The translations under genes and the position numbers were made by a program. Below are positions 19,486 to 26,999 of a stretch of DNA of 32,754 nt, piece by piece. The notes beneath the pieces were generated by a model. That model had not been told where the DNA came from, made no database searches, and saw only the letters and a program-made list of their open reading frames with translations. The DNA comes from a bacterium (lineage in GTDB: Bacteria > Patescibacteriota > Saccharimonadia > Saccharimonadales > JAUPVS01): positions 92,873-125,626 of the forward strand of contig JAKOXV010000013.1 in assembly GCA_029780855.1 (NCBI GenBank), written 5' to 3'. Each line of letters begins with the position of its first letter. The first letter of the stretch is position 1.

Positions 19486-19567
19486 CACTACATCCCTCCC
19501 ATCTACAACCCTACAGTTAGCCCTACCGTGCTACCATGATATTTTTCACAATAAAACAATACGGTTG

Positions 19568-19583
19568 TGTGAAAAAAATCACA
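19568..19583 (+). promoter_or_regulatory. CRP-type operator TGTGA-AAAAAA-TCACA
   Basis: Exact match to the CRP consensus; 21 nt upstream of -10 TACTAT (19605-19610), so centred near -41.5. Confidence 0.75.
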
Positions 19584-19637
19584 GCAGGGCATTAGCATTT
19601 TAGCTACTATGAAACTGCAACAAGCAAGGGGGGTATA

Positions 19638-19793
19638 ATGACAAAGGTAAACTTTTCTAACAAACCAACAAGAGCTGATGAGGTATACAGCAATTTTGAT
19701 GAGCTGTATGATGATATTTCGTCAGATTGGCAAGCTAAAGCCGATAGGCTACGTGCGCGTCGTTGGAGAAAACTAAAACACCAGAGCATTTAA
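19638..19793 (+). CDS. Small uncharacterised protein (51 aa)
   Basis: MTKVNFSNKPTRADEVYSNFDELYDDISSDWQAKADRLRARRWRKLKHQSI*; SD AAGGGGGG, promoter upstream and terminator downstream; below the ORF-track length cut-off. Confidence 0.78.
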   Translation: MTKVNFSNKPTRADEVYSNFDELYDDISSDWQAKADRLRARRWRKLKHQSI

Positions 19794-19811
19794 AAACCCA
19801 ATGCGTGACAT

Positions 19812-19843
19812 AAAAGCCTTCCCGGTAAAAGGGAGGGCTTTTT
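19812..19843. terminator. Bidirectional intrinsic terminator between convergent genes
   Basis: AAAAGCCTTCCC ggtaaaa GGGAGGGCTTTTT stem with one wobble pair, flanked by A-run and T-run. Confidence 0.85.
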
Positions 19844-19852
19844 ACTGGTTAC

Positions 19853-20515
19853 CTATTTTTTAATCCTCGCTTGGTCATATTCTTCATCAAGTATGGCGTT
19901 TAGTTCGGCGGTGTGCACGATATAGTTTTGCCGCCGGTAGGTTACGACACCCTTTTTTTCTAATTTTTTAAGTTCAATGCCGGTAGTTTCTCTCGTTAAG
20001 CCCATGATGTTTGCTAGATCTTGCTGCGTAAGCGGTAACCCAATCCTAACGGTATTTGGTGCCAATTCCCGGCCATGTCGGATGCTCAAGTAGTGAAGGG
20101 TGTGAATAATCTTATCAATTGCCTTTGGCTGTTCTAGTGCATTTACCCGCATTTGCAGATTAAGATGAGCAACAACGAAGTTTGCAAATACGTCATATAA
20201 AGATTCTTTACGGGTTTTTAAGTACTCAATATACTCCTCTCGAGGGACAATATAGATCTCGCAATCGGTAAATGCACCGTAGTAGTACTGTGCCCACGGC
20301 AATAGGTTAAACACCCAGCCAAGCGGAAATATATCCATTTCTGAATCAAAACTAATGGGGCGTTCTAAACCATCGGAGGTAATAGAATAGCTCTTTACGA
20401 TGCCACGTTTTACCACATAGGCTGACTGTGGCGCTTCACCGCCGATAATAATAAGCTCACCTTTATCGAACTTCTTCGTAGGGAACTTACTGACGAACTC
20501 ACGAAATGCTTGCAT
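19853..20515 (-). CDS. Crp/Fnr-family transcriptional regulator
   Basis: N-terminal cNMP-binding-like beta roll; C-terminal HTH LTQQDLANIMGLTRETTGIELKKLEKKGVV. Confidence 0.93.
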   Translation of the reverse strand: MQAFREFVSKFPTKKFDKGELIIIGGEAPQSAYVVKRGIVKSYSITSDGLERPISFDSEMDIFPLGWVFNLLPWAQYYYGAFTDCEIYIVPREEYIEYLKTRKESLYDVFANFVVAHLNLQMRVNALEQPKAIDKIIHTLHYLSIRHGRELAPNTVRIGLPLTQQDLANIMGLTRETTGIELKKLEKKGVVTYRRQNYIVHTAELNAILDEEYDQARIKK

Positions 20516-20573
20516 AATTCCAGCCCCCCTTAGTTATGTTTTATCGCTTCTCTAGAATAGCAGCAATTGATGA

Positions 20574-21101
20574 TTATTTAGCAGATTTTTTAACAGACGA
20601 ACCATTTGGTTTAATGCTCGAGGTAGATTTGAAATACTGACGTACTTGAAAGATGACATAGAGCGAAAGCACGGTTCCGGCTATAGTCCAGATTATTGCC
20701 ATGAAAGTTGAATAATTGGCGTAACGCAAATCTCGAAATACATCGTATACAAAAAACGCCAAGATACTGTAGAACAGCAGGTCCCATCCTGATTTATCCA
20801 TTTTTTTAAGTTTAGGAATAGCTATCCCTAACACCACTAGGTAGGCTGCCATAAAAAGCATTGACACCCATGCCATAAAAACATAACCCCCAGCACCTAC
20901 CACTACACCAAAGACGGACACGACACCAAGTAGGGCTAGTAAAGAAAAGAAGCCAATAACGCCGAAAACCAGTCCTATGAGGGCAAATACCCAAGCATAT
21001 GTAGCGATCCATTTACGCCAGTTATCGGGGAGTTGGACCGGCGCCTTATCAACAAGCATTTCATTAAGTTTCGCTTCTAGATCCTGTAAAGCCGTGGCCA
21101 T
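20574..21101 (-). CDS. Uncharacterised multi-TM membrane protein
   Basis: 175 aa, four to five hydrophobic helices; SD GAGGAGGAAA upstream of ATG. Confidence 0.78.
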   Translation of the reverse strand: MATALQDLEAKLNEMLVDKAPVQLPDNWRKWIATYAWVFALIGLVFGVIGFFSLLALLGVVSVFGVVVGAGGYVFMAWVSMLFMAAYLVVLGIAIPKLKKMDKSGWDLLFYSILAFFVYDVFRDLRYANYSTFMAIIWTIAGTVLSLYVIFQVRQYFKSTSSIKPNGSSVKKSAK

Positions 21102-21228
21102 AAGATTTCCTCCTCGATCATGTTGTTACTTTAAGCATACTGCTGCAAGAAGATAAATAAAAGATCCAACCTAACTAGAGTCGTTAACCTGTGCATAACT
21201 CGGTAAAACCGGTACAATACATGGGTAG

Positions 21229-24200
21229 ATGGGGAATTATGAAACAGAATTTGCCGCGCTCAATCAAGCGCAAAAACAAGCGGTCACCACGATTGAGGGG
21301 CCTGTATTGGTTATTGCCGGTCCTGGAACGGGGAAAACGCAGCTACTGAGCGTCAGGATTGCGCACATCCTCAAAACCACCGATACGCTTCCGCAGAATA
21401 TCTTATGTCTTACATTTACAGAATCCGCTGCACATACCATGCGACAAAGGCTCGTGAACCTAATAGGCCAAGCGGCCTATGATGTCACCATTAGCACGTA
21501 CCATGCGTTTGGAAGTGAGTTGATTCGCCGATATCCTGATTTTTTCTCTACTGAAATGCCCGATGCCCGACCAATAGATGATCTTGGTATGGACCAGATC
21601 CTTCGCAAAATCATTAAAGCTCTTCCATACGGAAACCCATTAAAGTTCGCTGACGCGTATATCTTTGACATAAAATCTTTGATAAGTGACTACAAACGAG
21701 CTCTGCTTGAACCTGAGGACATCAGGAACATTGCAAAACAAAATGAATTATTTATTCAGCGCACTACGCCAATCGTGCAAGAATGCCTAGCTGTGGTCAA
21801 TCGTATTGACAAACGTTCAGTTGCGGCCTTTTCTGAACTGTACGATATAACCTCTAAAAAGCAACAGAGCGAACAGATCGACGGCATCGTTCCGCTTGCT
21901 AATCTATGGATTAGAGAGCTTGGCCAGGCATTGCAAGAGTGCGAAGAAACCGGAAAAACAACCACTTTGACCGCCTGGAAGAATGCTTGGCTCGCAAAGG
22001 ACGAGAACGGGAAATTTGTAGTAGATGGTGTACATACCATAGCTAAGCTCTACGCCAGCGCCGATATATATGAGAAATACCGCGATACTCTTAAAAAACA
22101 CAACCTGTACGATTACGACGACATGATACTGAAAGCAATAAGAGGTCTCGAGAAGCACAGCGACCTCAAATATACCTTACAGGAGCAATATTTATATTTG
22201 CTGCTAGACGAATTTCAGGACACTAACGCTGCCCAATTAAGATTGGTAGAGTTACTAACCGACAATCCAGTCAATGAAGATCGACCGAATGTCCTAGCTG
22301 TAGGTGATGACGATCAAGCAATTTACGCATTTCAGGGTGCCGATTATTCACACATGCTTGCTTTCCACCGGAACTACAGAGATGTACTGGTCATTCCGTT
22401 ACGTGAAAACTACCGTTCCCACCACGAAATACTCCAAATGGCCGCAGGAATAGCCGGACAGATCAACACCCGTCTTCACTACAATTTTCCAAACATAGAA
22501 AAAAATATCGTTGCTAAAAAAGCCGATTTGCCCAAGCAATCAGTTTTGGAACGTCACGAATTCAAAAGTGATCTGGCTCAGTTTGTGTGGGTTGCAAAGA
22601 AAATTAAGCAGCTTATAGCCGAAGGCATGCAGCCAAATTCCATTGCTGTATTAGCTCCAGAACATAAGCATCTAGAACCTCTTGTCCCATACCTCCAGCA
22701 AGAAAGCATATCGGTACGGTATGATAAGCGCGAAAACATATTGGATGACCCAGCAGTATCCGAGCTGCTACAGATGGCGCGATTAGTTGAAGCGCTTTCT
22801 ATGCAAAATGAAGCACTGAGCGCAAGCCTCTGGCCAGAGGTTTTAAGTTTCGAGTTTTGGGGTTTGGAAACTGAGGAGATATGGAACCTCTCTTGGAAAT
22901 CCTACGACACCAAAACTTCGTGGACGAACATGTTGCTTACTACTCCAAAAACTGAGCACATCGCACTGTTTTTCATTCGCCTAAGCCTAATTGCAAGCCA
23001 TGAGACGGTAGAGCTACTGCTTGATTACCTTATCGGATCTGAGCCGCTACACTTACATGAAAAAGACGCTAAGCCGTATAGATCGCCGTTTTACCAGTAC
23101 TATTTTGGTAAAGAGAGGCAGCAAACTGAAGGTTCGAGTTTTTGGTCACTTCTTTCAAATCTCACCGTTCTCCGTCAACATTTGCGAGAATACCGGGCAG
23201 CTGATACTGATCCACTTACGATAGGCGATCTACTTGAGTTCGTAGAAGCACACCGTCAAGCAAATATCAAAATTCTAAACACCAGCCCGTATCACGAATC
23301 CTCAGACGCCGTCGAAATCATGACGGCGTACAAAGCTAAAGGTCAAGAGTTTGCTGCTGTATTTGTGTTAGCTTGCCTGGATGAGGTGTGGGGCTCTAAA
23401 CATCGCGGCGGATCCTCAAAGGTACCGCTCCCACAAAACCTTCAATTTATCCGCTATGGTGGTGCCAACGAAGACGAACGACTACGCCTCTTTTATGTTG
23501 CTCTCACTCGCGCAAAAACCAATCTGTACTTAACCAGCTATGAAAATAACTTTGCAAAAAAGACCATGTCGCACTTAAAGTTCCTAGGCGAAACAGAAGA
23601 AAACAAATCCATAACTAGCCCATTATTGCCGGAAGGCAGGCAGGTAGTGCATCTTGATGATGGGAATCCTCCCGCCGTACATGAACTGTCTACTTTCTGG
23701 CAGAATCGACATGTAGCCAATTCTCGGGCTGTCTCGCTGAAAGCTCTGCTTTCTAACCGTCTTGAACGCTACCAACTTGCTCCTACTCACCTTAATGCCT
23801 TCACCGACGTCATGTACGGGGGTCCACAACAGTTCTTTATCGATACTTTGCTGCGTTTCCCACGTGCACCGATGATAGAGGGCATCTATGGCGATGCCTT
23901 CCATAAAACTATCCAGTACATGCATATTCATCAGGTTAGTTCAGGAAGTTTGCCCTCAACTAAACAGATTCAACAGACATTTGAAAGCATCATAGTTTCC
24001 CAGCGCGTAGCAACAGATATAAAGGATCAGCTCTTGCAGCGGGGCAGGAAAGCTCTTATGGATTTCTACCAGCAAAAGAAAGATAGCTTTTTTCCAGACC
24101 ACCTCCATGAACGAAATTTCCGCGAAGAAGGTTCATTTATTGAAGAAGCTCATTTAACTGGGAATATCGACAAACTTGTTATTAATAACACGGATAAGAC

Positions 24201-24555
24201 TATCACCTTGATAGATTTTAAAACAGGAAAATCGCATGCGAAATGGCTGACAAACGATGTAAAACTTCACAAGTATCGACAGCAGCTTTACCTATATAAA
24301 ATACTAGTCGAATCGTCACATAGCTTTAAAGATTACAAAGTTACTGATGCCTTCCTGCAATTTGTAGAGCCCAACGAAAGCGGAGAGATTGTTGATCTGC
24401 ATTTGCACTTCAACGAGACCGAGGAACAGCGTATACGACAGCTCGTACAGGCGGTTTGGAAGCGGATCACTGAACTAGATTTTCCCGATATCACTCATTT
24501 TCCACCCTCCACAAAAGGTATCATAGCCTTTGAAGATAGTTTACTAAAAAAGTAA
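21229..24555 (+). CDS. UvrD/Rep-family ATP-dependent helicase with C-terminal PD-(D/E)XK nuclease domain
   Basis: Walker A GPGTGKTQ, LTFTESAA, LLDEFQDTN, DDQAIYAFQGA, YVALTRAK; C-terminal GNIDKLVI...TLIDFKTGKSH nuclease core. Confidence 0.93.
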   Translation: MGNYETEFAALNQAQKQAVTTIEGPVLVIAGPGTGKTQLLSVRIAHILKTTDTLPQNILCLTFTESAAHTMRQRLVNLIGQAAYDVTISTYHAFGSELIRRYPDFFSTEMPDARPIDDLGMDQILRKIIKALPYGNPLKFADAYIFDIKSLISDYKRALLEPEDIRNIAKQNELFIQRTTPIVQECLAVVNRIDKRSVAAFSELYDITSKKQQSEQIDGIVPLANLWIRELGQALQECEETGKTTTLTAWKNAWLAKDENGKFVVDGVHTIAKLYASADIYEKYRDTLKKHNLYDYDDMILKAIRGLEKHSDLKYTLQEQYLYLLLDEFQDTNAAQLRLVELLTDNPVNEDRPNVLAVGDDDQAIYAFQGADYSHMLAFHRNYRDVLVIPLRENYRSHHEILQMAAGIAGQINTRLHYNFPNIEKNIVAKKADLPKQSVLERHEFKSDLAQFVWVAKKIKQLIAEGMQPNSIAVLAPEHKHLEPLVPYLQQESISVRYDKRENILDDPAVSELLQMARLVEALSMQNEALSASLWPEVLSFEFWGLETEEIWNLSWKSYDTKTSWTNMLLTTPKTEHIALFFIRLSLIASHETVELLLDYLIGSEPLHLHEKDAKPYRSPFYQYYFGKERQQTEGSSFWSLLSNLTVLRQHLREYRAADTDPLTIGDLLEFVEAHRQANIKILNTSPYHESSDAVEIMTAYKAKGQEFAAVFVLACLDEVWGSKHRGGSSKVPLPQNLQFIRYGGANEDERLRLFYVALTRAKTNLYLTSYENNFAKKTMSHLKFLGETEENKSITSPLLPEGRQVVHLDDGNPPAVHELSTFWQNRHVANSRAVSLKALLSNRLERYQLAPTHLNAFTDVMYGGPQQFFIDTLLRFPRAPMIEGIYGDAFHKTIQYMHIHQVSSGSLPSTKQIQQTFESIIVSQRVATDIKDQLLQRGRKALMDFYQQKKDSFFPDHLHERNFREEGSFIEEAHLTGNIDKLVINNTDKTITLIDFKTGKSHAKWLTNDVKLHKYRQQLYLYKILVESSHSFKDYKVTDAFLQFVEPNESGEIVDLHLHFNETEEQRIRQLVQAVWKRITELDFPDITHFPPSTKGIIAFEDSLLKK

Positions 24556-24564
24556 AACGCAATT

Positions 24565-24596
24565 AAATAGCTCCAGGTGTAAGGCTGGAGCTATTT
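24565..24596. terminator. Bidirectional intrinsic terminator
   Basis: AAATAGCTCCAG / CTGGAGCTATTT perfect 12-bp stem between convergent helicase and aquaporin genes. Confidence 0.88.
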
Positions 24597-24617
24597 TGAT
24601 GCAACTACGTAAAACGT

Positions 24618-25361
24618 TTACTTTTTCTTGGTAGTCGTCTTTTTAGCTGGTTTCTTCTTTGCGGCGGCCTTCTTTTTTGCTACTGGCTTAGCTGTAGTAG
24701 TTTTGCGAGAAGCGGTTGCTACTGCATATGTTGGTCGTTCACTTGCAGGCGCAAAAAGATATGCGTATAGGTTGACACCTACTACACCACCAAGTAAGGG
24801 GCCTAACACATATGCTCGACTCCAGGACTGGACTCCCAGTGCTAGGGCTGGATTAGCTAGACCATTTGAAGCAACAGATGCAATCAGTGCTCCCAAAAAT
24901 ACTGCACCACCTAAGGTTGCAGAGTACTTCAGGCCTCTATAGCCAGAATACGCTGCGGCGGCAAAACCAAGTGTCAGCACAAACGCACCAACCACCTCTG
25001 CCACAAACACCTTCCAGCTAAAGGTATTGCCTGCGATGTTTGTAAGTTTTTGACCAACGAGATACACATACAGCTGCCAAGCGGCAAGTGCGCCCAAAAA
25101 CTGTGCAGCAATATATAGCACTGCATCTAGAGTTGAGATTTTTCTGGTCGTCCACATTCCGAGCGTAACAGCAGGATTGTAGTGTGAATTCGATGCTCCT
25201 GCCAAGGCAAGCGACATAAGAAATACTGCAAAACCGACGCCACTCGCAATAAACAAGCTAAAGCCTACGCCCGACTTACTAATAGAGAGAATTACCGTTA
25301 TCATACTGGCAACTCCCAAAAATTCTGCCACAATCATGGCGAATTTAGATCTTCCGAACAT
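24618..25361 (-). CDS. MIP/aquaporin-family channel with Lys/Ala-rich C-terminal tail
   Basis: Two NPA motifs (SHYNPAVTLG; GLANPALALG), six TM segments, tail AKKKAAAKKKPAKKTTTKKK. Confidence 0.92.
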   Translation of the reverse strand: MFGRSKFAMIVAEFLGVASMITVILSISKSGVGFSLFIASGVGFAVFLMSLALAGASNSHYNPAVTLGMWTTRKISTLDAVLYIAAQFLGALAAWQLYVYLVGQKLTNIAGNTFSWKVFVAEVVGAFVLTLGFAAAAYSGYRGLKYSATLGGAVFLGALIASVASNGLANPALALGVQSWSRAYVLGPLLGGVVGVNLYAYLFAPASERPTYAVATASRKTTTAKPVAKKKAAAKKKPAKKTTTKKK

Positions 25362-25384
25362 GGAAACCCTCCAATAAATTTTAC

Positions 25385-25401
25385 TTATGCTACAAGCATA
25401 A
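25385..25401. repeat. Inverted repeat TTATGCT-aca-AGCATAA upstream of the aquaporin gene
   Basis: Perfect 7-bp arms, 3-nt spacer, about 24 nt upstream of the aquaporin start. Confidence 0.4.
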
Positions 25402-25437
25402 TACGAAATGCAGCATATGTAAAAAAGATTTTATAGT

Positions 25438-26475
25438 TTATACCGCTTCAGAGGTTTCCGCGCTATCTTTAGGGAGCCGAACAAACAGTCGTAGACTGCC
25501 ATCGGTAAGATCTAACACCGTAGAAACTGCGTCTGCAAGCACATAGAATGCATCCTCACCGTGTTCTTCTAAAATTGCCCATACATCGAGATTAAAGTTT
25601 TGGATCTTTCCTTGAGTAAAACTATTGTAGTGGTCACGATGGAACGTGGTGCCTTCTACGAAATTCAAAGTAAGTGAAACTTCGTTATGTGACCCAACAA
25701 GCTTTTCTACAGAATGCGAGTTTTGACCCTTAAGGTCATCTATGACTAATTCTTTTTTATTAAAGTAGCTCTCTGCATGTTTGGAAAGAATAGCTGCCTG
25801 CTGCTTCAATGCATCTATCTTCTCTTTTGGTATCGTTTGATCTACCGCACCATACATAGCCGAAAGAACGGCTTCTAGTGATTTTGCGCGGTCGCTGATG
25901 TAAACTCCTAGCTTCCGTTCTTGTCCGTCAACTGCACCGCAACCCGTCTTACTTCCTTCGGCATGATCGTCAACGTGATCACCGGGAGCGTATTTGCTTT
26001 GGTTGTGAGAAAGATATGCTTTAACGTCGTCAACGAAAGTGGCTCCTGTTTCATAGCCTTTTTTAAAGCGATCAGCAATCACATCTCCTGCTGTTCCGCC
26101 TTGGACTTGTGGCCCTAGCGCTCTACCATACCAACTTGCAGCGGTATCTTGATAACCCTCAATCGTTCGTCCATCTACACAACGCTTAGGAGCTCCTTCA
26201 GACACATTCACAAAAGATTGTGGCAATCGCTCGGTAGCTGCTTTGACATCTTCTTCGGTTAGCTCTCCTGACTGAAGTCGTTTTTCTAATGAAATTGCCC
26301 CGGTCCAATGCTGTTTATCTGTTTCACCGCGTAATTCTCCAGCATATAAGAAGGTTGCTTCCATCATAGACTTCTCCTGTAGTTCTTGTTTTGTAATATC
26401 TAGTAGATGCTGCTCATCAACAACTTCGTCAGTCGTTTGTACCACATTAAAATCAGAAGGATTCATTTCTTCCAT
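25438..26475 (-). CDS. Zeta-class (cadmium-type) carbonic anhydrase-like protein
   Basis: CVDGR (CxDxR), GDHVDDHAEGSKTGCGAVD (His..GCG metal ligands), VGSHNEVSLTLNFVEGTTF; compared by memory with diatom CDCA repeats. Confidence 0.72.
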   Translation of the reverse strand: MEEMNPSDFNVVQTTDEVVDEQHLLDITKQELQEKSMMEATFLYAGELRGETDKQHWTGAISLEKRLQSGELTEEDVKAATERLPQSFVNVSEGAPKRCVDGRTIEGYQDTAASWYGRALGPQVQGGTAGDVIADRFKKGYETGATFVDDVKAYLSHNQSKYAPGDHVDDHAEGSKTGCGAVDGQERKLGVYISDRAKSLEAVLSAMYGAVDQTIPKEKIDALKQQAAILSKHAESYFNKKELVIDDLKGQNSHSVEKLVGSHNEVSLTLNFVEGTTFHRDHYNSFTQGKIQNFNLDVWAILEEHGEDAFYVLADAVSTVLDLTDGSLRLFVRLPKDSAETSEAV

Positions 26476-26508
26476 TTCTTCCTCTTTAGTTTTCTTAGCC
26501 AGAGTCGT

Positions 26509-26537
26509 ATTTTACGCTTGTCTGATCTGTTTTTCAA
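26509..26537 (-). promoter_or_regulatory. Sigma70-type promoter of the carbonic anhydrase-like gene
   Basis: On the minus strand: TTGAAA (26537-26532), 17-nt spacer, TAAAAT (26514-26509). Confidence 0.65.
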
Positions 26538-26565
26538 ACGTTACGTGCTAATTATCCCAATATTT

Positions 26566-26583
26566 TTGTGACAAATGTCACAA
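26566..26583 (+). promoter_or_regulatory. CRP-type operator TTGTGACA-AA-TGTCACAA
   Basis: 18-bp near-perfect palindrome containing TGTGA-N6-TCACA; 21 nt between TCACA and -10 TACGAT (26604-26609). Confidence 0.78.
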
Positions 26584-26639
26584 GCACAATATATGGGGTC
26601 TGCTACGATATGCTCACACTATTTTGGAGGGGTCCAAAC

Positions 26640-26999
26640 ATGACCACGACAGGTAAATGTATACCAAGCGTTTTAGAACTACCGGCCGCAGCGTTTGATT
26701 CATCTCTGCGAGACATTGAGGAGCGACCAGAAAAAGTCGACGAAATATGGGCTGAACTTTCTCACGTTAACCAAGAACTGGCACTTTCTATTTTGCGTTC
26801 GTCTGCAATGTTTAAGGCTAGTGGCGAAATACCCGATCCAGCCGCTTTAAAAACAACAATTGCGCTACTTGGCGCCATAGTAAAGCAAGAAACAGCTAGC
26901 AGCTTGGAAGATCAGCTGAACCAGCCTAGCGACGTTGACGGCGAGGTCGTCTACGTCGAATTTCCGCAATTTTCAGACGAACCTGAGAACGATCAATAA
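26640..26999 (+). CDS. Uncharacterised acidic protein (119 aa)
   Basis: ATG at 26640 preceded by SD GGAGGGG (ORF track opens upstream at 26568 inside the operator); promoter at 26604-26609. Confidence 0.8.
   Translation: MTTTGKCIPSVLELPAAAFDSSLRDIEERPEKVDEIWAELSHVNQELALSILRSSAMFKASGEIPDPAALKTTIALLGAIVKQETASSLEDQLNQPSDVDGEVVYVEFPQFSDEPENDQ

Follow-up and report, generated by a model that had tools for sequence, protein, structure and literature searches.

The window, that is, the whole analysed stretch of 32,754 nucleotides of Saccharibacterial DNA, contains two perfect TGTGA-N6-TCACA palindromes, operators A and B. We interpret both, with a probability of about 75%, as class II operators of CRP/FNR-family activators, operator A acting via Crp1, which is encoded in the window, and operator B more likely via its distant paralog Crp2. 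In class II activation of this kind, a dimer of the family would bind the palindrome at about -41.5, stand in for the -35 element and recruit RNA polymerase to the -10. Operator A would thereby drive a conserved 51-aa protein, most likely via the convergently encoded Crp1 next door. Operator B would drive a 119-aa ORF from the class II position, and probably also a divergent CDCA-like gene from -72.5. Sequence comparison gives the operators, their spacing, conservation, synteny and half-site classes, and from these we infer binding, activation, the assignment of regulators and the signal. The features, in window positions, are as follows.

19535..19550, + strand: weaker operator-like CATGATATTTTTCACA (8/10), 33 bp upstream of operator A; putative
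19568..19583, + strand: operator A, perfect TGTGAAAAAAATCACA, in class II position for the 51-aa gene; orthologous operators precede this gene in other genera
19605..19610, + strand: -10 TACTAT, 21 nt from operator A; predicted TSS ~19617, operator centre -41.5
19626..19633, + strand: Shine-Dalgarno AAGGGGGG, read in the sequence
19638..19793, + strand: 51-aa gene
19817..19846, + strand: terminator-like structure (hairpin and T run) separating the 51-aa gene from crp1
19853..20515, - strand: Crp1, Crp/Fnr-family regulator (cNMP_binding and HTH_Crp_2), convergent with the 51-aa gene; proposed activator of operator A
25438..26475, - strand: CDCA-like protein, 345 aa, with a CVDGR motif; second proposed target of operator B
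26509..26537, - strand: promoter-like TTGAAA-17-TAAAAT for the divergent CDCA-like gene; operator B at a predicted -72.5 (class I position)
26567..26582, + strand: operator B, perfect TGTGACAAATGTCACA, between divergent genes; Crp2-class half-sites (C/C)
26604..26609, + strand: -10 TACGAT, 21 nt from operator B; predicted TSS ~26616, operator centre -41.5
26626..26632, + strand: Shine-Dalgarno GGAGGGG, read in the sequence
26640..26999, + strand: 119-aa ORF, no convincing homologue; its 3' end overlaps the convergent atpC

Class II promoters of E. coli CRP combine the TGTGA-N6-TCACA consensus with a centre at -41.5 and the lack of a good -35 element, and the window promoters share these properties. 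As the first-pass annotation had read them, both palindromes are perfect and stand exactly 21 nt before a TANNNT -10 element, the -10 elements and both 21-nt spacers lie where it placed them, and a search of the two + strand promoters found no independent sigma-70 -35. Even with one mismatch allowed, operators A and B are the sole TGTGA-N6-TCACA matches in the window. Class II geometry, about -41.5 as calculated from the -10s, is well supported for operator A and a reasonable reading of operator B for the 119-aa ORF, and the spacing recurs in relatives. The comparisons support operators A and B as CRP/FNR-type sites in class II position that are conserved in relatives.

Palindromes and spacing could in principle be coincidental: when one mismatch is allowed, two matches arise in 21 of 100 shuffles of the window, and one-mismatch palindromes show no excess in the organism's own genome (872,261 bp in 24 contigs), at 22 against 20 for a reversed-pattern control. 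One-mismatch palindromes were not used as sites for this reason. The 16S rRNA of this genome is an exact match to four TM7/Saccharibacteria oligonucleotides, which identifies the organism as a Saccharibacterium. Perfect palindromes, however, number 4 in the same genome against 0 control matches, which agrees with the earlier claim that the sites go beyond chance, as does their retention in related bacteria. This excess, with the strong order-wide conservation and the position statistics below, makes coincidence very improbable, and for operator A it is already contradicted.

The strongest single result concerns the 51-aa family, in which an operator (at least 7/10) followed after 21 or 22 nt by TANNNT is found in 17 of the 31 upstream regions compared, one of which is that of the window. 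Shuffling these regions (200 dinucleotide-type shuffles) gives the composite 0.3 times on average and twice at most, and an offset scan peaks at 21 nt (12) and 22 nt (5). The composite is absent from 14 of the 31 family members, and the orthologous operators there are mostly imperfect palindromes. The nearest relative (G001) has TGTGAGAAAGTTAACA-N21-TACTAT before its 51-aa gene. A profile search detected the protein in 47 of 393 genomes across the order, in 30 genera, and in about ten genomes from several families the gene adjoins Crp1 orthologues. Pfam, NCBIfam and PHROGs gave no match; judged by its sequence, it is a new small-protein family. Operator A is probably real because many related bacteria conserve it in front of this very small gene, and the promoter at 19568 is strongly supported by these comparisons.

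The wider distribution of the palindrome is similar. Across 149 relatives, one of them from the same family, perfect palindromes number 181 against 117 controls, the excess being confined to relatives with a Crp-like gene. Genomes with such a gene have 1.55 palindromes each and those without 0.36 (Mann-Whitney P 3e-6); the reversed control gives 0.82 and 0.69 (P 0.43). The palindrome-N21-TANNNT composite occurs at 32 places in these relatives and the window, which contributes two, against about 7 for reversed-pattern controls. Distinct retrieved sites are mostly intergenic (107 of 152, where the intergenic share of sequence is 11.4%), and 14 of the 152 lie directly upstream of a Crp/Fnr gene. 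Among 103 site directions, taken without selecting on spacing, TANNNT is most frequent at offsets of 21 nt (12) and 22 nt (10) compared with a mean of 3.5, and a peak of 12 arises in mono-nucleotide shuffles with P 0.0015. Class II geometry appears real because the palindromes track Crp/Fnr genes, are intergenic, occur before crp genes and have -10s that peak at 21-22 nt. A further TANNNT peak, at 44 nt (10), equals that at 22 nt. Composites with two mismatches were weakly above control and were kept as leads only.

The region upstream of a ClpC-like gene in the organism's own genome (L001 2951-3060, contig C7) contains the CIRCE-like inverted repeat TTAGCACTC-N9-GAGTGCTAA and, downstream of the CIRCE promoter, a perfect TGTGAAGATTGTCACA in what is probably the 5' leader of clpC. 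Because of this location the clpC palindrome was not accepted as a class II site.

Activation is unlikely at the clpC palindrome, and the sites could instead be repressor operators, acting by roadblock or by occlusion of the -35. CRP/FNR proteins can repress, and the nearness of Crp2-upstream sites to the Crp2 start also fits such a role. Both window operators, however, occupy the -35 region of promoters with no independent -35, and the distance to the -10 is held tightly at 21-22 nt, which is what class II activation would require. We consider repression unlikely on this evidence and retain activation as the preferred reading.

Three Crp/Fnr proteins are encoded in the genome, Crp1 in the window, Crp2 (C9:210098) and Crp3 (C9:54338). 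Crp1 is a member of the Crp/Fnr superfamily, with a cNMP_binding domain and a Crp-type HTH that score above cut-off (PF00027, 37.9 bits; PF13545, 47.8 bits; PF00325, 28.5 bits). A scan of genome contigs for Crp1 gave one distant match only. No operator was found upstream of crp1 itself. The description of the operators as CRP-type holds for the CRP/FNR family but is unlikely to hold for CRP in the cAMP sense. Against the CRP equivalog NF008732 Crp1 scores 41 bits (cut-off 266), and the cAMP phosphate-binding cassette (GELGLFEEGQERSA in E. coli) is missing from both Crp1 (PLGWVFNLLPWAQY) and Crp2 (PLLWAFTGEGRNV). Class III adenylate cyclase (PF00211) was not found in the own genome and is present in 1 of 61 relatives. 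With the cassette missing and no class III cyclase found, cAMP was rejected as an unlikely effector, and the effector is probably another one. Compared with E. coli CRP, the recognition helix residues R180/E181/R185 are all present in Crp2 (RETTGR), whereas Crp1 (RETTGI) has isoleucine in place of R185, and the base after TGTGA is paralog-specific.

The solved structures closest to Crp1 by sequence are FNR/NtcA-type regulators, which share the Crp/Fnr fold, class II positions at about -41.5, and respiratory and energy targets. Crp1 differs from FNR in lacking the N-terminal cysteine cluster, with one cysteine in its whole sequence, and the window operators are TGTGA-type, unlike the TTGAT or GTA-N8-TAC of these regulators.

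Half-sites help to assign the regulators. Crp2-type genes usually have a palindrome of their own upstream, and the base after TGTGA is a purine or a pyrimidine in a ratio of 28:6 in 51-aa promoters and 5:21 in Crp2-upstream sites (Fisher P 1.3e-6). Operator A is of mixed class (A/T) and operator B is C/C, 15/16 identical to the Crp2-upstream operator of the own genome, TGTGACAAATATCACA. Operator A is most likely read by Crp1 because the two are linked, and its mixed class means that Crp2 might bind it too. Operator B is more likely read by Crp2 than by Crp1, given its half-site class and the 15/16 identity.

The first-pass annotation had proposed one local regulon, with both operators under the Crp1 encoded between them. 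The link between the 51-aa gene and Crp1 stands, but control of both sites by Crp1 alone lacks support in a genome with three Crp/Fnr genes. The two sites are close together and share the N21 geometry exactly, the tie between operator A and Crp1 is clear, and G012, a genome from another family, shows synteny of the CDCA locus and crp1. These points speak for a shared regulator; the Crp2-class half-sites of operator B speak against it, as do G001 and G009, which keep Crp1 and the 51-aa gene but whose interval from atpC to the aquaporin gene contains neither a CDCA gene nor an operator. A single local regulon under Crp1 is not established and seems doubtful, and we continue to favour Crp1 for operator A and Crp2 for operator B.

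At the syntenic place in G012, between atpC and the CDCA homologue, there is a palindrome with N21-TATAAT, and the leftward ORF at this conserved operator is short or broken. No homologue of the 119-aa ORF was found in the 149 relatives, and Pfam, NCBIfam and PHROGs gave no match; a small ORF in G007 was dropped as a candidate, its similarity being too weak. G007 and G050 have a similar divergent pair, in which a small ORF stands opposite the gene of a CMDERR-motif protein; its kinship to the window pair is putative. CDCA denotes the cadmium carbonic anhydrase repeat, and the CDCA-like protein with its CVDGR motif occurs here in a Saccharibacterium.

Genes near palindromes across the order include those for ATP synthase subunit a, PyrD, cytochrome bd subunit I, cytochrome b and a flavodoxin-like protein, and by reading of the sequence ribonucleotide reductase-like and acetate kinase genes are further candidate targets. 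The cytochromes, ATP synthase operon, PyrD, ribonucleotide reductase-like protein and flavodoxin make a redox, oxygen or energy signal the likeliest reading for these Crp/Fnr proteins. FNR-family regulators, of the same phylum and protein family as those here, have been noted in the Saccharibacterium T. rhizospherense and proposed to detect O2 (PMC6031116), a suggestion with which the redox or energy reading is in line. The available part of that account does not describe their operators, targets or promoter geometry.

Crp/Fnr operators in Saccharibacteria were not described in the literature searched. The kind of system is known; within that literature its Saccharibacterial occurrence, the operator classes and the 51-aa family appear new. 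Transcription control is poorly understood in the reduced Saccharibacteria (CPR), for which these results offer a specific operator code, promoters of fixed geometry, candidate respiration and stress targets and a new small-protein family, all open to binding assays without culturing the organism. More speculatively, Saccharibacteria may have a Crp/Fnr network that works without cAMP and uses two or more operator dialects (TGTGAR and TGTGAY). The 51-aa protein, spread across the order and often encoded beside Crp1, could be a hallmark output of this network, perhaps acting on Crp1 or RNA polymerase as a feedback partner.

Several further loci were observed. Four genomes belonging to a single family (f6) carry palindromes before the gene for ATP synthase subunit a (L158, L161, L166 and L171). 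In the own genome, a perfect palindrome separates Crp2 from a divergently oriented bacterial PH-domain gene (L002 2293-3783, contig C9), with a second, degenerate composite before the PH gene. Eight loci have a PH-domain homologue next to a palindrome, in most cases with a crp gene on the other side. A degenerate operator at C15:23813-23882 (L268/L285) of the own genome has N21-TANNNT both ways, towards a YtxH-like gene and an aldo/keto reductase gene.
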